A stretch of 37,383 nt of DNA from an uncultured Flavobacteriales bacterium (GTDB lineage Bacteria > Bacteroidota > Bacteroidia > Flavobacteriales_D > Sanyastnellaceae): positions 1 through 37,383 of the forward strand of contig CAJQPF010000130.1 of the NCBI GenBank assembly GCA_905480095.1. The letters run 5' to 3'. The position numbers and the translations under genes were made by a program. Shown piece by piece: positions 2,800 through 24,095 of the stretch; within the stretch, counting starts at the first letter, position 1; each line of letters starts with the position of its first letter. The notes under the pieces are model-generated. The model had not been told where the DNA came from. It searched no databases and saw nothing but the letters and a program-made list of their open reading frames with translations.

Positions 2800-4213
2800 T
2801 TATAAAGGTGGCGCCGTGGCCCTCTTTGGAGTCAACTGACACTTCGCCTTTTGATTGCTCAACGATGCTTTTAACCATCGCAAGGCCTAAGCCTAGGCCA
2901 TGTGTTTTTGTTGTGAAACGTGGCTCAAAAATCCTCTCTAGCTTCTCAGGTGGGATCCCAATGCCTGTATCAATCACTTTCACAATCGCAAAATCCTCAT
3001 CCTCTGTAATCTCAACTTTAATGGGATCGTTTGATTTCGAATCGTACATCGAATCAAGAGCATTTGCAATAAGGTTATTGAAGGCGCGCATCAGACGGCT
3101 GGCATCACCCTCGACCAGAACCTTGTGTGACTGACTCACCACAAGAACGCATTCTTCGCCATAGAGGTGGGCCGCGTTGTTCACGACATTGTTTAGGTCA
3201 ACCGAGATTATTTCAGCCTCACGAACGACTGCAAGGAGTGCAAAATCTTCTGCAATCGCTGCAAGAACATCTATTTGAGATATTGCTGTCGCAGAAAACC
3301 TTTTCAATCTGTCCGGAAAGTCATCCGCCTTGTCGTTCCATGCGCGTTCAAGTTGCTGAATACCCAGCTTGAGTGGTGTCAGTGGATTTTTTATCTCATG
3401 GGCAACCTGTTGCGCCATTTCTCTCCAAGCACCTTCTCTTTCATCTTTTGCTCTTCTAATCAGGCTTTCTCTAAGCTTAGAAAGGAGTTTGTTATACTGA
3501 TCCACGAGTTCCCCCACCTCGTCATTCCATTTGTGATCTAAAGACGTTGTGTTGCCTAGGGGGTCTACTTGTGCCATCTCTACTCTTAACCGATGAAGCG
3601 GCCTGAGGATCGATTGGACAATGAGATAAGCGATAAGCATCGCGCCTAGAAACAGAAACAAATAAACTGGCACCAAACGGTTTAGAAAGGGTTTGATTCC
3701 CCCTTGGGTTAATGGTCTTGGGTTATATCTCGCGGTCGCGATTAACAGCGGGTCACCATCATCGGTGGTCACCATCCAATGAACACGCGTTATTTCGTTT
3801 GTGCCAAGTGTTTCCGTCACAACAACACGGTCGCCTTTCAGTTTAAGATTATTAAGGAGGTTATGTTCTAACGCTAAATCAGGCTGAAGGTCCTCATTTT
3901 CAAACGAAGCTGAGGTGGTTACCAAAACCCCGTCAGGTCTATATAAGCTGAAAGTGAGCCTGTGAACGTCCGCCAGCTCACAGATGTGATCTGTAAAAAC
4001 GACGGAAATGCTGTCCAACGGAAGGCTTCCTCCTTGCCTTGTGAGCACATAGTCTAGGCTTCTGCTTAAAGCAGCCTCTTTTCTTAAAAGTCTCTGGCTG
4101 TTGTAAGCCAATTCTTGTGTTTGGGAAAAATCGAACGCAACAACTGCTGTAGCCACTAAGGCAACCATCACAACCGCCAACATTCCGATGAAAATTCTAA
4201 ACCTTAAGCCCAT
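2774..4213 (-). CDS. NtrY-like membrane sensor histidine kinase
   Basis: This is a 479-residue two-component kinase. Membrane segments lie at about residues 7-27 and 177-200 and bracket a periplasmic sensor of about 150 residues. A HAMP linker follows (about 200-252), then a HisKA domain with the phospho-acceptor motif VAHEIKNPLTPLK (His272). The HATPase domain shows the N box (NNLIANALDS), DTGIGIPPE and GLGLGLAMVKSIVE. The architecture resembles NtrY-type kinases. No response regulator is adjacent, so it is an orphan within the window. It starts 60 bases after atpG and may be read through from the ATP synthase operon. I saw no clear promoter of its own. Confidence 0.9.
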   Translation of the reverse strand: MGLRFRIFIGMLAVVMVALVATAVVAFDFSQTQELAYNSQRLLRKEAALSRSLDYVLTRQGGSLPLDSISVVFTDHICELADVHRLTFSLYRPDGVLVTTSASFENEDLQPDLALEHNLLNNLKLKGDRVVVTETLGTNEITRVHWMVTTDDGDPLLIATARYNPRPLTQGGIKPFLNRLVPVYLFLFLGAMLIAYLIVQSILRPLHRLRVEMAQVDPLGNTTSLDHKWNDEVGELVDQYNKLLSKLRESLIRRAKDEREGAWREMAQQVAHEIKNPLTPLKLGIQQLERAWNDKADDFPDRLKRFSATAISQIDVLAAIAEDFALLAVVREAEIISVDLNNVVNNAAHLYGEECVLVVSQSHKVLVEGDASRLMRAFNNLIANALDSMYDSKSNDPIKVEITEDEDFAIVKVIDTGIGIPPEKLERIFEPRFTTKTHGLGLGLAMVKSIVEQSKGEVSVDSKEGHGATFIIKLLKARK

Positions 4214-13196: not shown

Positions 13197-14093
13197 TTGG
13201 CCGATATTCGCGACGTGGCTAACAAGAAAAAAGTGAATAAAAATAAGCGGTTTTGGCGCCAGAGATTTAGGGTTGTCATTCAGGAAGAGTCAACGTTTCA
13301 TGAGCGTGGGGCATATTTTTTGTCTGGCCGAAGACTAACCGTTATTGCGCTTGGGTTTGTTTTGTCTGTGGTGGTGGTTTCATATTTAGCCATCGCGCAT
13401 ACGCCATTAACTGAACATCTTGTGCCTGGTTTTGTTGCAAATCAATACCGTGAGGATGCTGCTGCTGCGAGGCTGGATGCTGATAGCGCACTTAAGATGC
13501 TTTCTGTTCAAGAACAACATTTGAATTCCTTAAAATCGATCTTAAGGGGTGATATTCTTGTGGATAGTGTGTCTGTCGGATTAATGAGGGGCTCCGTCAA
13601 TCCTTCTGGGGATGATGTTTTGCCTACGGCGAGTAATGAAGATTTGGAGCTGAGAGAGCGTGTTGAGGGTGAAGACCGGTTTGCGCTAAGAAGGAGTGGG
13701 CCTGATGTTGCGATGGCCATCGGATTTGATTTCCAACCTGTTGGAGGGGGTGTTTCTGATGGTTTCGATCTTAGTTATGGTCACTTTGGTGTTGACCTGG
13801 AGGCTGCTGAGGGGGTTCTTGTTCACGCTGTTGATGATGGAACGGTGTTGGTCTCTGATTACACTGTTGCGCACGGATATGTGATTGCAATACAGCATCG
13901 AAATAACCGCATATCTATATATAAACACAACGCTTCTTTGTTAAAAGAGGTGGGGGAATTGGTTCAAATGGGGGACGTTATTGCCTCGGTTGGAAATAGC
14001 GGAACCCAGACCACGGGCCCTCACCTGCACTTCGAGTGGTGGGTTAACGGACAACCTATAGACCCAAGCCCATGGCTTAGAGCAGGGGGTTAA
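13197..14093 (+). CDS. M23 family metallopeptidase with single membrane anchor
   Basis: This is a lysostaphin/LytM-type peptidoglycan endopeptidase of up to 298 residues. A basic cytoplasmic N-terminus precedes one membrane segment (about 46-68) and a short coiled region (about 83-115). The M23 domain runs from about residue 190 to the end. The zinc ligands are visible as HxxxD (His196, Asp200) and HLH (276-278), with GNSGTQTTGPHLHFEWWVNGQPIDP typical. I infer a role in cell-wall remodelling. No ATG start exists: a TAG lies directly before the TTG at 13197. GTG at 13215 or 13233 are alternatives, favoured by the putative promoter. It diverges from sprE. Confidence 0.9.
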   Translation: MADIRDVANKKKVNKNKRFWRQRFRVVIQEESTFHERGAYFLSGRRLTVIALGFVLSVVVVSYLAIAHTPLTEHLVPGFVANQYREDAAAARLDADSALKMLSVQEQHLNSLKSILRGDILVDSVSVGLMRGSVNPSGDDVLPTASNEDLELRERVEGEDRFALRRSGPDVAMAIGFDFQPVGGGVSDGFDLSYGHFGVDLEAAEGVLVHAVDDGTVLVSDYTVAHGYVIAIQHRNNRISIYKHNASLLKEVGELVQMGDVIASVGNSGTQTTGPHLHFEWWVNGQPIDPSPWLRAGG

Positions 14094-14096
14094 GGT

Positions 14097-15020
14097 TTAA
14101 CCTCTTATGGAGCGAAACTTAACCATGGCGCGTAATTTATTCATGCGGTCATGCCATTCTGATTCCTGAAGAGATTCTAACCTCTTAGTGCCAAACGCTT
14201 CACACGTAAACGAGGCAAGGACAGAGCCCACAACCACAGCTTGTTTTTTTGCCTCCCATGAGGTATCACCAAGCCGAGCCAAATAGCCGATAAATCCACC
14301 CGCAAAAGTGTCTCCGGCTCCAGTGGGGTCAACGACTTTCTTAAGCGGCATTGCTGGACTGTAAAACACCTGGCCCTCCTCAAACATAATGGCCCCGTGT
14401 TCGCCTTTTTTTATTACGACTGTTTTTGGCCCCATTTTATGAACCGCCTCGGCTGCCAAGGGTAGGGTTTTAAAACCCGTAAGCTGTCTCGCCTCATCAT
14501 CGTTAATCATAAGCACATCAACCTTTGATATCACTTTTTTTAACCCATCCATCGCGATGTCCATCCAAAAATTCATCGTGTCTAAGACAATCAAGCTTGG
14601 TGTTGATTTAAGCTGCTCTATAACCGAAAGCTGAACGGTTGGGTCAAGGTTTCCAAGCATGACAAATTTCGAGTCAAGTGCGCCAGATGGTACTTTAGGC
14701 GACCACCCCTCGAGAACATTTAGTTCCGTTGTAACCGTGTCCCTTCCGATGAGGTCCTCGTGATAACTGCCTTCCCAAAAAAAACTTTTACCCCCCTTAA
14801 TTGTGACAAGACCCTCCGATCCAACGCCCCTTGACTCTAGCGTAGAAAGGAATTCTTTTGGAAAGTCCTCCCCTATTACGGAAATAAGCTCTTGCTCTCT
14901 CACAAAGTGAGACGCCGCTAAAGCGATATAACTGGCGGCGCCACCAACGACACGATCAGCCTTGCCTGATGGGGTTTCAATCGAATCAAACGCAACCGTT
15001 CCTACAGTAACTAAAGACAT
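14097..15020 (-). CDS. PfkB-family sugar/nucleoside kinase
   Basis: This 307-residue cytoplasmic kinase is of the ribokinase/PfkB fold. The N-terminal VVGGAASYIALAASHF matches the substrate-side GG motif. The C-terminal signature DPTGAGDTFAGGFIGYLARLG carries the anion hole and catalytic base (Asp237). The substrate cannot be determined: ribokinase, adenosine kinase and fructokinase share the same motifs. The stop codon lies three bases from the M23 gene's stop on the other strand, and no terminator is visible between them. Confidence 0.9.
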   Translation of the reverse strand: MSLVTVGTVAFDSIETPSGKADRVVGGAASYIALAASHFVREQELISVIGEDFPKEFLSTLESRGVGSEGLVTIKGGKSFFWEGSYHEDLIGRDTVTTELNVLEGWSPKVPSGALDSKFVMLGNLDPTVQLSVIEQLKSTPSLIVLDTMNFWMDIAMDGLKKVISKVDVLMINDDEARQLTGFKTLPLAAEAVHKMGPKTVVIKKGEHGAIMFEEGQVFYSPAMPLKKVVDPTGAGDTFAGGFIGYLARLGDTSWEAKKQAVVVGSVLASFTCEAFGTKRLESLQESEWHDRMNKLRAMVKFRSIRG

Positions 15021-15068
15021 TAGAGTGTGGTTTTAGAAAAAAAATCAATAAAAAATCAATAAGAGCAG

Positions 15069-15076
15069 CAAAAGTA
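15069..15076 (-). promoter_or_regulatory. Candidate -7 element (TACTTTTG) for the PfkB kinase gene
   Basis: The minus strand reads TACTTTTG, a full TAnnTTTG match, about 48 bases before the ATG at 15020. Its last base (15076) overlaps the first base of the -33 tetrad of the divergent tRNA-Asn promoter. No -33 match was seen. Confidence 0.45.
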
Positions 15077-15107
15077 TTGCGGAATGTGCTTCGTTGATGT
15101 ATTTTTG
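15076..15107 (+). promoter_or_regulatory. Candidate promoter (ATTG-N20-TATTTTTG) of tRNA-Asn
   Basis: ATTG at 15076-15079 and TATTTTTG at 15100-15107 are 20 bases apart. The -7 box fully matches TAnnTTTG and the -33 box matches TTG. A start near 15114 would lie just upstream of the mature tRNA. Confidence 0.65.
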
Positions 15108-15122
15108 CGCACCAATCTAAAT

Positions 15123-15199
15123 TCCTCCTTAGCTCAGCTGGTTAGAGCATCTGACTGTTAATCAGAGGGTCCTTGGTTCGAGTCCAAGAGGAGGAGCCA
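15123..15199 (+). tRNA. tRNA-Asn (anticodon GTT), CCA encoded
   Basis: The cloverleaf folds fully. The acceptor stem is TCCTCCT with AGGAGGA (15189-15195). The D arm is GCTC/GAGC, the anticodon arm TCTGA-CTGTTAA-TCAGA gives anticodon GTT, and the T arm is CTTGG-TTCGAGT-CCAAG. The discriminator base is G at 15196, followed by an encoded CCA (15197-15199). Confidence 0.97.
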
Positions 15200-15203
15200 T
15201 ATT

Positions 15204-15239
15204 AGACAAGAGGTCATTTTTGACCTCTTGTCTTTTTTT
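15204..15239 (+). terminator. Rho-independent terminator of tRNA-Asn
   Basis: A perfect 13-base stem (15204-15216 with 15221-15233, loop TTTT) is followed by a T run. It starts five bases after the tRNA CCA. Confidence 0.9.
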
Positions 15240-15450
15240 ACCACTTTTCAAAACCTTACTGGCCAACATAATAGATTCGATCTCTGGAGTGAAAATGTTG
15301 TTGCAACTCTCGAAATCAAAATTTTCGAATTTTTCGGTAAAGATGCAACCAAGAATCTTTTGTTTGGTCTTCCCGTACGAATTATCCTAATAATGAATTT
15401 TTATAATTTTTTCCATACTTTAGTTGAATAAATAATAAATTATTTTAATT

Positions 15451-15618
15451 ATGGCAGTATTAAGTTGTCCTGAATGTAAAAAAATGACCCAAAAAGGAGG
15501 TTATCAAACTTGGCAAATTGTTGTAGCTATATGCTTTTTCCCCTTGGGATTATTGGCGTTATTAGCTGACAAAAAACCAACAGTATGTAATTCATGTGGG
15601 CATACGTGGCAAGGATAG
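15451..15618 (+). CDS. 55-residue double-CxxC zinc-ribbon protein with a membrane segment (BRI3-like layout)
   Basis: This short frame begins with ATG at 15451. The protein starts MAVLSCPECKKM, has a hydrophobic stretch IVVAICFFPLGLLALLA (about residues 24-39), and ends PTVCNSCGHTWQG. Two CxxC pairs on either side of one membrane-size segment suggest a split zinc ribbon around a hairpin or single helix. The order CPxC, FFPLG(L/I)L, CxxCG is like that of the BRI3 (brain protein I3) and related families. That resemblance is from memory and is an inference. The next gene begins three bases after the stop. DNA here is far richer in A and T than the flanks. Function unknown. Confidence 0.7.
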   Translation: MAVLSCPECKKMTQKGGYQTWQIVVAICFFPLGLLALLADKKPTVCNSCGHTWQG

Positions 15619-15621
15619 GCT

Positions 15622-15950
15622 ATGTTCTCAGGTTTTACATCAAAAGAGACATCAACTAAGAGCTTGGATGAACTAAATGAGTTTTTTTTTTTCTGGGAGT
15701 TTTAGAATCAGAAAACAATTACCAAAAAAAATTTAGAAAACCCCATACCTTTTACAACCAAACAACAACTGTTGGTCTTCATACAAATTCAGAGAGCAAA
15801 ACCAGGATTAATTTTTATTACTCTTTTAGTCCTAATTTTCTTTCATGGATATTAGGTATATGTTTTTTTCCATTTGGACTTTTAATTTTTATCATCCCAA
15901 ATAAGGATAAAGACGAATTTGAACTAATGATTAATACTCATGAGTTTTAA
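15622..15950 (+). pseudogene. Small membrane-protein gene interrupted by a frame change at an 11-T run
   Basis: Reading from ATG at 15622 gives MFSGFTSKETSTKSLDELNE and then Phe codons, with a stop at 15703. A second frame opens after the T run (15682-15692) and reads LGVLESENNYQ through WILGICFFPFGLLIFIIPNK to a stop at 15948. It has no start of its own, being closed by TGA at 15678. Adding one T joins both parts into a 109-residue protein. This may be a sequencing error, a true mutation, or slippage during transcription. The hydrophobic ICFFPFGLL segment closely matches ICFFPLGLL in the upstream 55-residue protein. The end overlaps the DUF2752 gene by 11 bases. Function unknown. Confidence 0.6.
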
Positions 15951-16284
15951 AAGATTAAATTCCTTCTTGTTGATCTCGTTAATAGTGATATTCATTGAAC
16001 TAAAAGGTTCTCACATATATCACTTTTGTCTTTTTGAACAACTTTTAAACATTCATTGTCCTTTTTGTGGTATGACTAAATCATTTGAAGAAATATTAAA
16101 TCAAAATTTCTTGGATGCTTTTAAGATTAACTTTCTTTCGTACGGACTCATATTTTTCTTTTTATTGAAATTTATTTTTGAAATTTTCAAACTTGATACT
16201 CATATTCTGAAATTAAATAAAATGTTTACGTTTTTATGCTTTGTTCAGTTTATTAAATCAAATCTTATTTTAGAAACTATTTAA
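15940..16284 (+). CDS. DUF2752 family membrane protein
   Basis: This 114-residue protein has three hydrophobic stretches (about 9-22, 68-82 and 94-104). Between the first two lies HCPFCGMTKSFEEILNQNFLDAFKINFLSYG, which matches the DUF2752 pattern CPxCGMT(R/K) followed by a short amphipathic segment and a conserved Asn. The family's function is unknown. Genes of this type are often found near small TM2 or CD225-like membrane proteins, as here. The ATG overlaps the end of the preceding gene, so coupled translation is likely. The AT-rich codons match its two small neighbours, not the rest of the window. Confidence 0.8.
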   Translation: MSFKRLNSFLLISLIVIFIELKGSHIYHFCLFEQLLNIHCPFCGMTKSFEEILNQNFLDAFKINFLSYGLIFFFLLKFIFEIFKLDTHILKLNKMFTFLCFVQFIKSNLILETI

Positions 16285-16433
16285 AGATTATAGATCCACT
16301 TCCTTCACAATTAGAGGAAGTTTACACTCGTTACTTAAGTGTTTTTGAGGTGGGAGAAATGTATATCGTTCAAGGTGAGTGGATCGTCAAAAGAAGATAT
16401 TGTGTTGCAACTTTGAATAATAGGGGGAGCTTT
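16285..16433 (+). other. AT-rich spacer with an open but startless frame
   Basis: Between the DUF2752 stop and the shared terminator, one plus-strand frame stays open from about 16259 to a TAA at 16445-16447. It reads DPLPSQLEEVYTRYLSVF and then VGEMYIVQGEWIVKRRY. The only ATG is internal, near 16359. It could be a decayed gene tail or chance. I do not call a gene. Confidence 0.3.
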
Positions 16434-16463
16434 AAAAACCCCGCATAACCGCGGGGTTTTTTT
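16434..16463. terminator. Bidirectional terminator between the AT-rich island and the LytTR regulator gene
   Basis: A perfect 11-base stem (16434-16444 with 16451-16461, loop ATAACC) has a GC core (CCCCGC/GCGGGG) and A/T runs on both sides. It can therefore stop transcripts from either strand. It lies six bases past the stop codon of the response regulator gene. Confidence 0.85.
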
Positions 16464-16469
16464 ATTGTG

Positions 16470-17219
16470 TTAAAGGAGGTTTATTCTGCCGGCTAACGCG
16501 TCTTTATAGGACCCTCCCACAGGGATTTCTTTCTCCATATCCTCCATTGTAATGTTGGAGTATTTGATGCTTTCAATCGCGTTAATATTTACGATGTAGC
16601 TTCTGTGCACCCTGACAAAACGCCTGTCACTCAGCTTTCTTTCGATCTCCTTCATTGTGCTGTGGATCGTGTAGCTTTCTTTTCTCGTGTGTATGACAAC
16701 GTAGTCTTTTAGGGCCTCCACAAACAAAAGGTCATCGTGTTTGACCTGCATCAGGCGGCTTCTGTTTTTCACAAAAATAATATCCGCGCCTGATTTGTGT
16801 TCTGTAAGGCTCCGAAGAAACTCCGCTTCGTTTTTTAACTCAAGCTCTTTGCTGTGCTTGTGAAGCGCCATCTCAACCGCAGACTGGATATCTGCATCCT
16901 TAAATGGTTTAAGAATGTATCCGTGGGGTTCTGCCATTTTTGCTTGAGCGAGTGTGTTTTCATCCGCATATGCAGTAAGGAAAATAACAGGGACGTCTAA
17001 ATTGCGTTTAATCTCTTCGGCGGCGGCAATGCCATTCATGTCTCCCTTGATCATAATATCCATAAGGCACAAGTCGGGCTTGTGCTCTAGCGCTGCCGCT
17101 ATAGCTTTCTCGCCAGTATCTACAGAAGCCACAATTTCATAGCCAAGCTGCCCCAGGCACCTTTCAATATCTTTTCTTACAATGCTCTCGTCCTCGGTTA
17201 CTAATATTTTCTTTGCCAT
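16470..17219 (-). CDS. LytTR-family response regulator
   Basis: This 249-residue protein has two domains. The receiver (about 1-125) shows the acidic pocket (Glu9, Asp10, Glu11), phospho-acceptor Asp54 in CLMDIMIKG, the switch Thr in IFLTAYAD, and the Lys of YILKPFK. A linker leads to a C-terminal LytTR DNA-binding domain (about 150-249) with FVEALKDYVVIHT and RFVRVHRSYIVNINAIESI. It starts 12 bases downstream of the six-PAS kinase gene, which is almost certainly its partner. Confidence 0.95.
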   Translation of the reverse strand: MAKKILVTEDESIVRKDIERCLGQLGYEIVASVDTGEKAIAAALEHKPDLCLMDIMIKGDMNGIAAAEEIKRNLDVPVIFLTAYADENTLAQAKMAEPHGYILKPFKDADIQSAVEMALHKHSKELELKNEAEFLRSLTEHKSGADIIFVKNRSRLMQVKHDDLLFVEALKDYVVIHTRKESYTIHSTMKEIERKLSDRRFVRVHRSYIVNINAIESIKYSNITMEDMEKEIPVGGSYKDALAGRINLL

Positions 17220-17231
17220 CTTAGGTTGTGT

Positions 17232-20165
17232 TTAAGTCAGGTTGTGCGCCTCAAAGCTAATTAAAAAAGAACTCCCTTTGCGACCATCCTTTGTGCTTTC
17301 TACCACAAGTTTTGCTTCTAGTTGTTCGGAAAGTGCTTGAATAAGGTACAGTCCCAGGGATTCATTTTTATTAAGACTGAAGTCGTCTGGCAGCCCAACG
17401 CCATCATCTCTCACTTCGATCTCGATTCTGCCATCTAGTTTTGCCACCCTTAAAAAAACAACCCCCCTCTTTCGTCCTTTAAATGCGTATTTCAATGCGT
17501 TTGACACCAGTTCGTTTACAATTAACCCGCTTGGGATCGCTTGATCTAGGGTAAGGTAAACATCTTCAAACGCGGACTGAAGAGTCACCTCACAGTCTGG
17601 TGTAGAGTAGCTGTGAATAAGGTTTGTGCTTAAACGTTGAAGGTAGTCTGCAAAACTTATTGATGAGAAATCTGTGTGCCTGTAGAGGGATTCGTGGATG
17701 TAGCTCATGGTCGCAATCCTGCTTTGGCTTTCATCAAGTACCTGAACAAGCGTTGGGTCTTTCACGAATGACTTTTGAAGGCTCATAAGGCTACTTATCA
17801 CCTGAAGGTTGTTTTTCACTCTGTGATGAACCTCTTTAAGTAAGATTTCCTTTTCTTTTAGTGCCAAACGGATTGCCCTATCGATTTCCTTTCGCTCTGT
17901 AATGTCATATGCAATGCAACTTATCTCATTTTGAGCATCATCTGAAGAAATGGGGTTCAGAAAAATGTGAAACCACTTTGCCTCACCAGAGGCTATTTTA
18001 AGGGGAAGCTCAAAGTCTTTTGCGTTGCCCTTTAAGGCTTTCTTAAATAAGCGAATCTGCCCTTGATAAGACTCGTCAGTAATGAATTTTGAGATATTCG
18101 ACACAAAAGACATTCCAAGCTCCACATTCTTGGTGAGCTTATCCTCCATCAATCTTCTGAAATTGTTGTTAAATGAGGTGATTTGGTCATCTCTATTTAG
18201 GGTAAACATGATCAAGTTTTGAGTTGAGTCAAAGATTGAGTCGAGTTTTGCAGATTGAGATTTTGCCTCTTTTTCGTGGCGTCTCATTTCGGATATATCT
18301 AAATATATCCCTCGCATCCCAATGGCCTTTCCGTTGTCATCATATTGGGCGGACGATGCCCCCAGGACGATTAATTCTTCCCCATTTGAATCTATAAACA
18401 CACGCTCCTCTTGTTTTCCGTTTAAAACATTAATCCAGTCTTTGTTTTTTGTGGGGAAGTTTTTAATGATTCCCTTAATTGTCGTTTTTGAAAGACTTGT
18501 TTTTGTGAAACCCAGTTTTTTATAGAACGAGGGGTTCGCGTATGTGAAGTGTCCCGAGGAGTCCACCACAAAAATAATGTCTGTGGCGTTTTCTAAAATA
18601 TCCCTGTACCTTTCTTCGCTTGATTTAAGCTCCTCTTCTGCCAACTTCATGTCTGTTATATCCCTACCCACAGCCATCGCCCCCAAGGGCCGCCCAGCGC
18701 CGTCCCTCATTGTGGCTACAGAGATAAACATACTGAATGTTTCTCCCGAAAATCTCCTCCCTTCTATTTCTCCTGAAAAATAACTTCTTTGTTGGAGTTC
18801 ATCAAAAACGCCGTTGGCTGTTTTTTCATCTATGAGAAACTCTTTAAAATTAGGTGTGCTTTCTTGGTTTGGTTCTATTCCAAACTCCACCGAGAAGGCG
18901 TGATTGTATTGTTGGAGGTTACCATCCATGTCGAACGCAACAATCATATCTATGGATGACTCAATAATTGATCTGTTAAACTCCTCTGCGTCCCTAAGTC
19001 GCGCTTGTGTTTTTTTATGCTTTGTTATTTCCTCTTTAAGCATCAGGTTTGACTCTTCTGCCAGGGTCGCCCTCATCTGCTCCCTCATGAGCTGAATTCT
19101 CGTGCTAAGGTCTGTAACTGTGACCTGGATTGCAGGAGATCTGTCGTGAAAAGAAAGGGTCATTCTTATTCCTACTTCTTTTTCGGTGCCGTCCCTAAGA
19201 ATCATCATTACCTCTCGGTACGGCGGCCTGTCACCGTTTCTTACTTTTTCTACATCTTCCTTAACAACAACCTTATCCTCGTCTTTAAATAAATCAATGA
19301 ACACTTCGTCATAAATGTAGTCTTCAACCCTTTCGTTGAGTAGCTCCAACCCGCCCGTGTTTGTATATTTTATTCGGCCATCAACGATTAAAAACAAACC
19401 GATAGGGCTCGACTCCACCAACATTCTAAATCGCTCTTTTGTTTGAAGCAGGTCAAACTCTGTGCGTTTGCGGTCTGTAATATCATAGAGCATTAAAATT
19501 TGCTCGCTCCCCTCCTCTTTTCCGTCACTTCTAGTGGCTTCGAGATAAATCGACCTCCCTTGTTTTGTGACACCCCTTAACTCACACCGCATTCCCCAGT
19601 TCCTCCTTGCAGACAGTCTCTGCCAATCTCTTTCGTCTATAAAATCTAGGATAGAAACCCCCACCGGCACGCTTTCGTGACCAAACATGATCGCAAATTG
19701 TTCGTTTGAATCTTGAATTATTCCATCGCTGAGAAAAACGATTCCCTCCATTGCAAACTGAGACAACACCCTAAATCTTGCCTCGCTTTCTCTTATTTCA
19801 TTGTCGTAAAACAGTCTTTCAGAAATATCTCTTACTTGGAGAGATTCTATGTTTTTTTCTATTTGAGCTATTTTAATCTCACAATGAAACTCACTGCCAT
19901 CTATTCTTCTTGCAAGAACACAAATCTTAATTACCCTGCCTGATTTTCGCGATTTTTTAAGCTTACTAATCAGCAAGCTGTGTTCGTCTGGTAAATAATT
20001 AAATATTCCTGAGTCTTTTGACAATGGATCAAACCCCACCCACTCATCCTCTTCGCAATGAAATATTCTTCTTGCGTGCCTGTTGCTTTTTATTACTTTT
20101 CCTTTTTCAAGAATAAAGCGTGCCTCAGCTGATTTTTCAAAAAGAATATTATCTAAATTATCCAC
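17232..20165 (-). CDS. Cytoplasmic sensor histidine kinase with six PAS domains and HisKA_2 core
   Basis: This 977-residue kinase has no membrane segment. Six PAS-like units follow one another, at about residues 10-115, 128-240, 245-365, 395-520, 525-640 and 650-770 (for example FAMEGIVFLSDG, SSPIGLFLIVDG, SSIDMIVAFDMDG, NATDIIFVVDSSG). The kinase core is the HisKA_2 type: EKEILLKEVHHRVKNNLQ holds the phospho-acceptor His. The ATPase domain shows IVNELVSNALKYAF, VRDDGVGLP and SLGLYLI. It is followed 12 bases later by a LytTR regulator and preceded, four bases upstream, by a MORN-repeat gene. Ligands of the PAS units are unknown. Confidence 0.93.
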   Translation of the reverse strand: MDNLDNILFEKSAEARFILEKGKVIKSNRHARRIFHCEEDEWVGFDPLSKDSGIFNYLPDEHSLLISKLKKSRKSGRVIKICVLARRIDGSEFHCEIKIAQIEKNIESLQVRDISERLFYDNEIRESEARFRVLSQFAMEGIVFLSDGIIQDSNEQFAIMFGHESVPVGVSILDFIDERDWQRLSARRNWGMRCELRGVTKQGRSIYLEATRSDGKEEGSEQILMLYDITDRKRTEFDLLQTKERFRMLVESSPIGLFLIVDGRIKYTNTGGLELLNERVEDYIYDEVFIDLFKDEDKVVVKEDVEKVRNGDRPPYREVMMILRDGTEKEVGIRMTLSFHDRSPAIQVTVTDLSTRIQLMREQMRATLAEESNLMLKEEITKHKKTQARLRDAEEFNRSIIESSIDMIVAFDMDGNLQQYNHAFSVEFGIEPNQESTPNFKEFLIDEKTANGVFDELQQRSYFSGEIEGRRFSGETFSMFISVATMRDGAGRPLGAMAVGRDITDMKLAEEELKSSEERYRDILENATDIIFVVDSSGHFTYANPSFYKKLGFTKTSLSKTTIKGIIKNFPTKNKDWINVLNGKQEERVFIDSNGEELIVLGASSAQYDDNGKAIGMRGIYLDISEMRRHEKEAKSQSAKLDSIFDSTQNLIMFTLNRDDQITSFNNNFRRLMEDKLTKNVELGMSFVSNISKFITDESYQGQIRLFKKALKGNAKDFELPLKIASGEAKWFHIFLNPISSDDAQNEISCIAYDITERKEIDRAIRLALKEKEILLKEVHHRVKNNLQVISSLMSLQKSFVKDPTLVQVLDESQSRIATMSYIHESLYRHTDFSSISFADYLQRLSTNLIHSYSTPDCEVTLQSAFEDVYLTLDQAIPSGLIVNELVSNALKYAFKGRKRGVVFLRVAKLDGRIEIEVRDDGVGLPDDFSLNKNESLGLYLIQALSEQLEAKLVVESTKDGRKGSSFLISFEAHNLT

Positions 20166-22112: not shown

Positions 22113-24095
22113 ATGAATATTAGCATAGGTTGCGATCACGCTGGACCCGTTTACAAAACAACAATTAGTAACCACCTCAAAGAAAGAGGTTTTTCAGTGA
22201 AAAATTGCGGAACAGACGGAGAAGAGAGTGTAGATTATCCAGATTTTGCCCACGCAGTTGCAAACGATATAAATAATAAAACCTCAGAGCTGGGTGTTTT
22301 GATATGCGGATCAGCCAATGGCGTTGCGATGACCGCGAACAAACACGGCGAAATCAGGGCGGCAATAGCTTGGACGCCAGAAATAGCAAAACTTGCCAGA
22401 ACGCATAACAACGCGAACGTTATTTGTATTCCGGCAAGATTTGTTAGTGAATCAGAAGCAATTCAAATTGTAGAAGCCTTTATGGCCGCCAAATTCGAGG
22501 GAGGCCGTCACGCAAGGCGAGTGGGAAAAATAGCGTGTTGTGTTTTTGCAATCCTATTGGGAATAGGGTCAGCTTTTGCGCAAGACACAGAGGCGATAGA
22601 ACCTCTTTCCCCTGCCACCTACTCAGAGATGTTAGACACAAACAACCTGAGAGGACACTTAAGTATTATTGCGTCTGATGGTTTTGAAGGTAGAGAAACG
22701 GGTACGCGGGGCGCAGATCTTACCGCAGCATATTTGGAAAGCTATTATTTAAGCCTTGGGTTTAGCCCCTATGACGGCAAGTCGTTCACCCAAAAAGTGC
22801 CAATGATCAACACCCAAATTAATGGGGGCACAGTCGTTGTGAGTGATAACCAATATAACATTGTCAGCGACTTCCTTGTTTACCCAGGAATAGAAGAGTT
22901 GACAATAGATTCCTCAGCGATGGTTTTTGCGGGATATGGAATTATAAACGAAGAGATTAACGAATATTCAGGACTAGATGTAAAAGGAAAGGTGGTTGTT
23001 ATTCTATCTGGGGACCCCAGAGACGAAGCGTCTGTGTGGGCGAATAACACAACACTAAAAAGAGAAATTGCAGACTCACTGGGGGCAAGCGCTTTCGTGG
23101 TGCTTATGAAAGACCCAGACTACGCCACATTTAAAGGGAGAATGAAGTTTTATATGATGCGCAAATCAACGGTTTTAAACAGGGATAAAGATGGAGAGGG
23201 CTCAACCATCCCAACCTTTTTATTGTCAGACAAGCGAGGTGACGACTGGGTTTCATCAATAAAGGGTATAAAGTCCGTTTCAAAAGCAAGGTTAAAAGCT
23301 GAAAAAAAAGGCATGTGCCCCACGGGAGCAATTGACCACTTGTGGAGCCACAAGATTGACATGGGTTCGCATAAGTTTAATGGGCTAAACGTGCTCGCAT
23401 ACCTCCCAGGGTCAGACCCCGCCCTTCAAGAGGAGCTCGTTGTAATCACCTCCCATTATGACCACATTGGCATCGTTGATGGAGAAATTAACAACGGGGC
23501 AGATGATGACGGGTCAGGAACGGTTACGGTGATGGAAGTTGCCAGGTTATATATGGAGGCACACAAAGACGGAAACGGACCAAGAAGAAGTGTTCTGTTT
23601 ATGAATGTTGTGGGGGAGGAAAAAGGTTTGTTGGGCTCAGAATGGTACGCTGACCACCCAGTCTTTCCTCTACAAAACACGGTTGCCAACCTGAATGTTG
23701 ATATGGTGGGCAGAGTTGATGAGGCCCACGCAGATGATGAAAAATACGTTTATTTAATAGGTGCCGACAAACTCAGTTCAGAGCTCCATGAAATATCTGA
23801 ACAAGCCAACAAAAACTACACAAACATAAAGTTAGACTACACCTTCAATGCGCCTGACGATCCGAACAGGTTTTACTACCGTTCAGACCACTACAATTTT
23901 GCAAAACACAACATCCCTGTAATTTTTTATTTCAGCGGCGTTCATGAAGACTACCATGCGCCGGGAGATGATGTAGAGAAAATAATGTTTACAAAAACAG
24001 GAGAGATTGGAAAGCTGGTGTTTAACACCTCATGGGCCCTTTTAAATAGAGATAAAAGAATCGTTGTAGACAAGGTTAACGACTTTCCCGAATAA
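22113..24095 (+). CDS. RpiB (ribose-5-phosphate isomerase B) fused in frame to an exported M28 zinc peptidase
   Basis: One uninterrupted 660-residue frame encodes two complete proteins. Residues 1-142 are RpiB, which interconverts ribose-5-phosphate and ribulose-5-phosphate: GCDHAGP (Asp8, His9), ICGSANG (Cys65), RTHNNANV (His98) and the usual terminus FEGGRHARRVGKIAC. The next residues, CVFAILLGIGSAFAQ, form a signal-peptide core with an AFA/Q cleavage site (after Ala156). An M28 aminopeptidase with a PA-like insert follows. Its zinc ligands appear as HYDH (about 448-451), NGADDDGSG, EEKGLLGSEW, NVDMVGR and HEDYHAPGD. A separate peptidase could start at ATG 22482 or GTG 22521. The 3' end overlaps the TlpA-like gene by 20 bases. 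Confidence 0.88.
   Translation: MNISIGCDHAGPVYKTTISNHLKERGFSVKNCGTDGEESVDYPDFAHAVANDINNKTSELGVLICGSANGVAMTANKHGEIRAAIAWTPEIAKLARTHNNANVICIPARFVSESEAIQIVEAFMAAKFEGGRHARRVGKIACCVFAILLGIGSAFAQDTEAIEPLSPATYSEMLDTNNLRGHLSIIASDGFEGRETGTRGADLTAAYLESYYLSLGFSPYDGKSFTQKVPMINTQINGGTVVVSDNQYNIVSDFLVYPGIEELTIDSSAMVFAGYGIINEEINEYSGLDVKGKVVVILSGDPRDEASVWANNTTLKREIADSLGASAFVVLMKDPDYATFKGRMKFYMMRKSTVLNRDKDGEGSTIPTFLLSDKRGDDWVSSIKGIKSVSKARLKAEKKGMCPTGAIDHLWSHKIDMGSHKFNGLNVLAYLPGSDPALQEELVVITSHYDHIGIVDGEINNGADDDGSGTVTVMEVARLYMEAHKDGNGPRRSVLFMNVVGEEKGLLGSEWYADHPVFPLQNTVANLNVDMVGRVDEAHADDEKYVYLIGADKLSSELHEISEQANKNYTNIKLDYTFNAPDDPNRFYYRSDHYNFAKHNIPVIFYFSGVHEDYHAPGDDVEKIMFTKTGEIGKLVFNTSWALLNRDKRIVVDKVNDFPE

Follow-up and report, generated by a model that had tools for sequence, protein, structure and literature searches.

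Staphylococcal cassette chromosome (SCC) elements insert at the 3' end of a target gene and occur in tandem and recombinase-less forms, and tyrosine-integrase islands are the usual kind of element at tRNA genes. In the enterococcal cassette chromosome (ECC), as set out in an excerpt of the published account (PMC6222049), large serine recombinases insert variable cargo, and CALIN arrays are described, again in an excerpt (PMC11389934), as carrying small, varied cargo without an adjoining integrase. The locus described here lies within a stretch of DNA (the window) that comprises one whole contig of 37,383 bases, from a genome of the metagenome-assembled type (2.1 Mb, 165 contigs, 83.5% complete). 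It resembles SCC and ECC in the apparent use of serine recombinases to insert variable cargo, but differs in that the target is a tRNA gene, the cassettes are ∼0.9–1.2 kb in length and an intact recombinase is lacking. An SCC-like cassette chromosome was considered for the element and discarded, since its target is tRNA-Asn and not rlmH. With integrons and CALIN arrays it shares small, varied cargo arranged in tandem between recurring ends with no adjoining integrase; however, the window showed no attC-like end and the fossil enzyme resembles a serine recombinase. The inverted repeats listed for positions 14900–16700 included none of attC-like form on inspection by eye, as opposed to with an attC model, and no integrase was apparent by eye among window ORFs of at least 110 aa. 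The categories involved are already known and it is their combination that is new. Islets of this sort, small, AT-rich and located behind tRNA genes, are commonly dismissed; here the target, the empty site, the ends, the fossil enzyme and the cargo are all visible. It is considered likely that the locus represents a small mobile cassette at the 3' end of tRNA-Asn, inserted by a now-lost large serine recombinase and carrying a pair of BRI3-like and DUF2752 membrane partners, with the gene between them most likely decaying. The features referred to in the text are as follows.

15123..15199, plus strand: tRNA-Asn(GTT), the integration target; the host terminator stands directly behind it in the closest cassette-free sisters
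15198..16430, no strand assigned: whole inserted cassette, ∼1.23 kb, with borders read off the empty sites L006 and L007
15204..15233, plus strand: cassette-borne intrinsic terminator of 13 pairs, now behind the tRNA (terminator search)
15213..15371, minus strand: probable fossil of a large serine recombinase C-terminus, 53 codons (tblastn, shuffles, frame-specific constraint)
15451..15618, plus strand: gene 1, a 55-aa BRI3/LITAF-type membrane domain with two CxxC pairs (CPxC, CxxC) (Pfam, alignment, dN/dS)
15622..15708, plus strand: gene 2, first part, an ATG frame running through the T11 run to a stop (ORF reading)
15682..15692, plus strand: run of 11 T, the point of the gene 2 frame change (sequence)
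15681..15950, plus strand: gene 2, second part, an 89-codon open frame with a CFFPxGLL hydrophobic segment (similarity)
15940..16284, plus strand: gene 3, a DUF2752 protein of 114 aa with C-x9-CPxCGxT and several predicted helices (Pfam, alignment, model)
16400..16430, plus strand: right-end motif TTGTGTTGCAACTTTGAATAATAGGGGGAGC, common to other tRNA-Asn cassettes (motif comparison)
16434..16461, no strand assigned: the host's original tRNA-Asn terminator, displaced, outside the cassette (equivalent hairpin in L006 and L007)

The borders of the insertion were defined by comparison with related genomes. Among the 14 genomes of the genus, counting that of the window, 10 have the response-regulator gene that flanks the locus at E ≤ 1e-30, and in four sister loci (L006, L007, L008 and L010) a full tRNA-Asn lies on the same stretch as this gene and at most ∼85 nt from it. 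Two of these, L008 and L010, are more distant empty sites in which tRNA-Asn adjoins the response-regulator gene, and the two closest, L006 and L007, are 89–93% identical to the window on both flanks and lack everything in between. At the empty-site junction of L006 and L007 the tRNA sequence ...GAGGAGC is followed immediately by TTTGAAAGCC..., whereas in the window the tRNA end ...GAGGAGGAGC is followed by positions 15198–16430 and then by TTTAAAAACCCCGC..., which corresponds to the TTTGAAAGCC...GCGGGGC hairpin seen in those sister loci. Since that hairpin stands directly behind tRNA-Asn in L006 and L007, the hairpin at 16434–16461 is the host's own tRNA terminator, displaced, and the terminator at 15204–15233 therefore came with the insert. 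A first-pass annotation made from the sequence alone had placed three small genes behind tRNA-Asn, where they were indeed found, and had regarded them as closed by a terminator; this hairpin exists, but belongs to the host and not to the unit. The cassette ends agree at 8 of 9 bases (15189–15197, AGGAGGAGC, against 16422–16430, AGGGGGAGC), and an Rfam search over 14000–18000 returned nothing besides the tRNA. In all, ∼1.23 kb of foreign DNA has been inserted precisely at the 3' end of tRNA-Asn, with the exact insertion, recurring ends and fixed target of a serine-recombinase integrative element. The G+C content of 15198–16428 is 29.3% against 44.5% for the remaining window, in keeping with the sharp compositional difference from the flanks claimed at first pass, although comparable AT-richness in 4 of 338 other window stretches of the same length makes the cassette unusual as opposed to unique. 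Third-position G+C is 0.21–0.27 in the three cassette readings versus 0.42–0.52 in three neighbouring host genes.

The distribution of the cassette ends was examined among 114 genomes of the family. The left end (15198–15450) is present in three of them, namely the window's genome (G000), G118 (83% identity) and G102 (71% identity), and the right-end pattern occurs in the same three, with none for a reversed-pattern control. A looser right-end pattern was discarded, having given 5 hits in the 114 genomes against 6 for its reversed control, with only the place in G118 being real; this pattern was badly spaced and missed the window itself. In G102 (MAG casp150-mb.122, locus L016), which belongs to another genus of the family, the host genes ahead of tRNA-Asn stand in the same order as in the window, and behind the tRNA lie two tandem units, comprising a DedA-like gene and then a BRI3-like/DUF2752 module (cargo named by eye). 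Both units are closed by a version of TTGTGCTGCA..TTGAA...GGGG, the right-end motif being degenerate in this genome. G118 combines a window-type left end with different cargo, namely a BlaI-like and a second small ORF (by eye), and its contig breaks off within the right-end motif. Another G118 contig opens in the right-end motif and continues into a second unit, which differs in its left end, carries DUF3703-like and VanZ-like genes (by eye) and is closed by CAGCCGCAACTTCTGACTACAGGGGGAGC. From their common motif the two contigs are probably adjacent, which would place tandem cassettes in G118 also. In G002, from the window's genus, a cation-efflux-like gene (by eye) is the cargo of a unit whose left end is of the second type. 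The presence of other cassettes with other cargo in the same slot renders cassette traffic directly testable. A broader proposal, put forward tentatively and with less than even confidence, is that tRNA-Asn anchors a cassette array in this family, in which short recombinase-less cassettes, each bringing a left terminator of its own and sharing one right-end motif, would be stacked at the 3' end of the tRNA, with large serine recombinases moving them in trans. They would form an integron-like capture platform based on serine recombination, with the BRI3/LITAF-type and DUF2752 pair among its cargo. Among the papers listed on serine recombinases, tRNA and cassettes in one literature collection, none names such a cassette system in its title or opening abstract lines.

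Several further observations were made at tRNA-Asn. In G004 the response-regulator gene has a 47-nt piece of the tRNA-Asn 3' end ahead of it (L095, 1327–1373), and a 3' fragment also precedes the G002 cassette at the end of L096; such fragments would mark a second element at this tRNA, one of the tyrosine-integrase type. Among 40 stretches retrieved, there are 11 (L061–L063, L068, L069, L073, L074, L077, L080, L085 and L092) in which the contig ends within tRNA-Asn or no more than ∼1 kb behind it, a clustering expected for a variable or repeated spot. In G090, from the same family, at least 12 further partial tRNA-Asn copies lie behind tRNA-Asn at intervals of ∼111 bp (L090, 643–2153), each of them, over 640–1420, with CCCGACGCCGTCGGG in place of the anticodon arm and its own terminator-like hairpin; ARAGORN and Rfam scans of L090 detected the true tRNA alone.

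The source of the insertion is suggested by genome G111, in which a 1.5-kb large serine recombinase gene lies directly behind tRNA-Asn and reads towards the tRNA. A scan of the first 330 residues of the encoded protein gave 108 bits against PF00239 and identified Resolvase, Recombinase and zinc-ribbon domains. The last ∼50 residues of the protein are matched by the minus strand of the window at the corresponding place (tblastn E 0.001), and when the fossil was compared with seven recombinases, 1 of 300 shuffles scored as high as its best match. In the fossil frame, comparison of the window with G118 gave pS 0.455 and pN 0.145, whereas in the other two frames pS was lower than pN; the contrast was weaker against G102 (0.584/0.234 in the fossil frame, 0.294/0.289 and 0.376/0.305 in the others). 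An intact recombinase gene is not present, with ∼53 codons being left. Homologues of the G111-type recombinase at E ≤ 1e-20 were found in 8 of the 114 family genomes, and none at that threshold in the window's own, 83.5% complete, genome. Among nine recombinase ORFs of 510–575 codons in the family, a set from which the partial matches L121, L123 and L124 were excluded, seven extend into the antisense strand of a tRNA or tmRNA gene, an eighth is 41 nt distant from one and the last, L119, has none nearby; the placement of these ORFs at tRNA and tmRNA genes therefore points to a recombinase family that targets tRNA 3' ends. The cassette is plausibly the deletion product of a tRNA-targeting serine-recombinase element. 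A large serine recombinase of this family would have made the insertion, and, with its gene gone apart from the C-terminal fossil, the cassette could now be moved only with a recombinase supplied in trans. It was also observed that in L114–L117, L120, L122 and L125 the recombinase frames run antisense into different tRNA genes or tmRNA, such that the host tRNA may supply the last codons of these overlapping recombinases.

The protein encoded by gene 1 is the double-CxxC protein of 55 residues recognised at first pass, for which a zinc-ribbon or BRI3-like profile search had been proposed. It scores 31.8 bits against PF10164 (BRI3; cut-off 25.9), and a LITAF-like zinc ribbon (PF10601) was rejected at 12.1 bits, under the cut-off of 23.8. 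The match is limited to profile positions 57–105 of 106 and so does not span the full-length domain; as the N-terminal half of the profile is unmatched, the label BRI3-like is used. LITAF is described in an excerpt of PMC5142333 as a zinc-binding protein in which a hydrophobic helix between two cysteine knuckles anchors in the membrane plane. Gene 1 has the same order of CxxC, hydrophobic helix and CxxC, but BRI3 and LITAF are eukaryotic membrane zinc-knuckle proteins, whereas gene 1 is bacterial, encodes only 55 aa and is paired with DUF2752. Its product would fold in LITAF-like fashion, stabilised by zinc and with the short hydrophobic segment in the membrane between the two CxxC knuckles. 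An alignment search found gene 1 in 4 of 399 genomes of the order (G000, G102, G101 and G092), and a single-protein search did not find it in any of 59 other relatives, 13 of which are of the same genus. A scan of bacterial and archaeal genomes added 13 loci from Bacteroidota and Verrucomicrobiota at 60–89% identity, two of which, L019 and L020, are the same in sequence, with L020 consequently omitted from alignments A1 and A2. All 13 aligned members, the window's included, match BRI3 at E ≤ 0.001, and 22 of 55 positions are invariant across the 13 rows, among them C6, C9, C46 and C49 on either side of the hydrophobic segment, C28 and FPxGLL. No match at E ≤ 0.01 was obtained in plasmid and phage collections. 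Viral contigs yielded no relative with a single-protein query and two with an alignment query, of which the first is convincing (52% identity) and the other weak (32%); L159, an IMG/VR contig, encodes a 53-aa BRI3-like protein at 2846–3007, with no adjoining DUF2752-like ORF by eye. A PDB sequence search returned only short matches of zinc-finger type, and a search of one literature collection gave nothing on bacterial BRI3 homologues for two of three term combinations. Through this cargo the BRI3/LITAF domain, familiar chiefly from human membrane biology, is linked to a bacterial family that is very common.

That family is DUF2752, to which gene 3, as annotated at first pass, was assigned with 44.1 bits against PF10825 (cut-off 27). 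The protein shares the C...CPxCG motif, with C30, C40, P41, C43 and G44 unchanged across all 13 members. Between the window and G102, dN/dS is 0.05 in gene 1 and 0.31 in gene 3, by which measure both genes are under purifying selection. In all 13 other loci, which are those with gene 1 on a bacterial contig of sufficient reach, a DUF2752 gene adjoins gene 1 on the same strand; these loci were retrieved by exact peptide words of the gene 1 protein and are thus close relatives and no random sample. In eight of them DUF2752 comes first, 10–34 nt ahead of gene 1, and in five the order is gene 1, middle region and DUF2752, as in the window; the search for the genes together, advised at first pass, encountered both the 55-residue frame and the gene order again in relatives. 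The phage contig, which carries a BRI3-like gene without DUF2752, counts against obligate pairing. Gene 3 differs from other DUF2752 genes in its BRI3-like partner. In a phylum sample, 197 of 395 genomes have a DUF2752 match at E ≤ 1e-6, and the surroundings of the 30 matches with the highest scores yielded no BRI3-like ORF; these 30 are the top of the 197 by score and not a random selection. Domain scanning of 30 ORFs neighbouring these matches (9 of the 39 listed being left out as seemingly spurious) assigned, at E ≤ 0.001, five TM2, five DUF4190 (with 7 matching the overlapping MpPF26), five DUF4234, two CD225 and two DUF5684 proteins to 17 of the 30 loci. Further neighbours are similar by eye, and a small membrane neighbour is missing in six loci (L129, L133, L140, L143, L144 and L152). 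In L021, TM2, DUF2752 and gene 1 are consecutive. CD225-type proteins, according to an excerpt of PMC4488726, are present in bacteria and resemble animal IFITMs.

These data suggest that DUF2752 genes may have a common partner slot filled by small membrane proteins (BRI3-like, TM2, CD225, DUF4190 or DUF4234), and the apparent exchange of partners leads to the testable idea that DUF2752 holds a small membrane partner. The favoured reading of the cargo is a putative two-protein membrane module of gene 1 and gene 3. The gene 1 product would dock, as a dedicated partner, on the polytopic DUF2752 protein in the slot otherwise taken by TM2, CD225, DUF4190 or DUF4234; the three invariant cysteines of the DUF2752 protein lie near a hydrophobic stretch. 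As a guess, the most likely job of the module could be to adjust or sense the state of the membrane. AlphaFold models of the proteins were too weak to inform this step (mean pLDDT 75 and 64; pTM 0.30 for gene 1), a PDB fold search gave no match for the DUF2752 model, and the term DUF2752 was not found in a search of one literature collection.

The middle gene had been described at first pass as a frame-shifted hydrophobic protein, with a three-base gap before it and an 11-base overlap after it. The gap (15619–15621) and overlap (15940–15950) are exact, and the frames 15622–15708 and 15681–15950 meet at the T11 run. The first part has weak, nine-residue N-terminal similarity to an intact homologue in L017 (E 0.11), and the second part matches the same homologue at E 2e-17 and gene 1 at 4.6e-5, with the CFFPxGLL segment common to genes 1 and 2. 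The gene is complete and open in L017 and L026 (the latter the same in sequence as L127), open to the contig end in L128, apparently disrupted in L019/L020 judging by reading frames, and in G102 has lost its ATG and acquired several indels while both neighbouring genes are open. Being intact in some relatives and decayed in others, gene 2 is, on balance, probably being lost; the dN/dS of its second frame against G102, 0.41, may date from before the break. Of the module of small membrane proteins envisaged at first pass, the BRI3-like/DUF2752 pair thus stands, whereas the middle gene, being probably broken, does not appear to be a third working partner.

Other explanations for the origin of the locus were weighed against insertion by a serine recombinase. 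G102, of another genus, carries this module at the corresponding tRNA, as would be the case were the genes ancestral to the group and cleanly lost by the sisters; however, gene 1 occurs in 0 of 13 other genomes of the genus, cassette G+C is 0.29 against 0.44, and pS between the window and G102 is 0.53 for gene 1 and 0.33 for gene 3 compared with a saturated 0.81 for the adjacent host gene, such that ancestry is scarcely credible. Over 1,120 nt the two cassettes are 75% identical, versus 64% for the neighbouring PfkB-type gene. Since synonymous divergence is lower in the cassettes than in the host gene, the cassettes separated later than their hosts, and by this measure the copies in different genera are younger than the split of those hosts. 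The first-pass view of a transferred unit is accordingly upheld, both by the empty sites in sisters and by pS values far under that of the host gene. A remnant of an ordinary tyrosine-integrase island is less readily dismissed, given that the tRNA fragment in G004 implies that hits at the same tRNA seem to occur and that a contig of G002 breaks off at that point of the tRNA. The right end of the window, however, has no tRNA fragment, just 9 nt with 8 matches, and the left-end fossil resembles a serine recombinase C-terminus, making this origin improbable.

The break in gene 2 and the role of the cargo also admit other readings. The two frames meet exactly at the 11-T run and jointly cover the homologous length, and the second frame is free of stops to its end, with pN lower than pS against G102; gene 2 could feasibly be unbroken, therefore, with T11 acting as a slipped-strand phase-variation switch or as a site of transcriptional slippage or programmed frameshifting. 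This seems rather unlikely, since the T run is missing at that place in G102 and, judging by translations, in the intact L017 and L026, and the G102 gene lacks its ATG and has several indels between open neighbours. An assembly or sequencing error, as might affect a homopolymer of 11 in a metagenome-assembled genome of 165 contigs, is somewhat less probable again: disrupted copies are also held by L016 and L019 (identical to L020), because of which the loss of gene 2 is taken as a real trend. With regard to function, anti-phage or toxin-antitoxin cargo would suit a mobile location, a BRI3-like protein is encoded on a viral contig, and a weak PADLOC hit links the DUF2752 protein, one of four proteins, to the candidate PDC-M14A (E 0.0035), a hit that recurs in 2 of 13 DUF2752 members (best 0.0011). 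Yet it spans just 30 residues around the CPxCG motif, merely single ones of the 30 usual DUF2752 neighbours match defence models at E ≤ 0.01, and genes 1 and 2 have no defence-model match at E ≤ 1. Such a role is thus very improbable, and the two-protein membrane module is retained as the preferred reading of the cargo.

Two minor observations concern other loci. In L018 (Bacteroidales JAIOZK010000001.1, 1546–7225) a DUF2752–BRI3 pair lies between attC-like repeats spaced ∼0.9–2.5 kb apart, downstream of a tyrosine recombinase that scores under the integron-integrase cut-offs. The single attC-like hairpins are unconvincing by energy (z -0.89 and -1.70, with 37 and 9 of 200 shuffles folding equally well), and the locus is possibly the same module as an integron cassette. 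Elsewhere in the window, at 22113–24095, a single ORF was seen by eye to fuse an RpiB-like sugar-phosphate isomerase with an apparent secreted M28-type peptidase.
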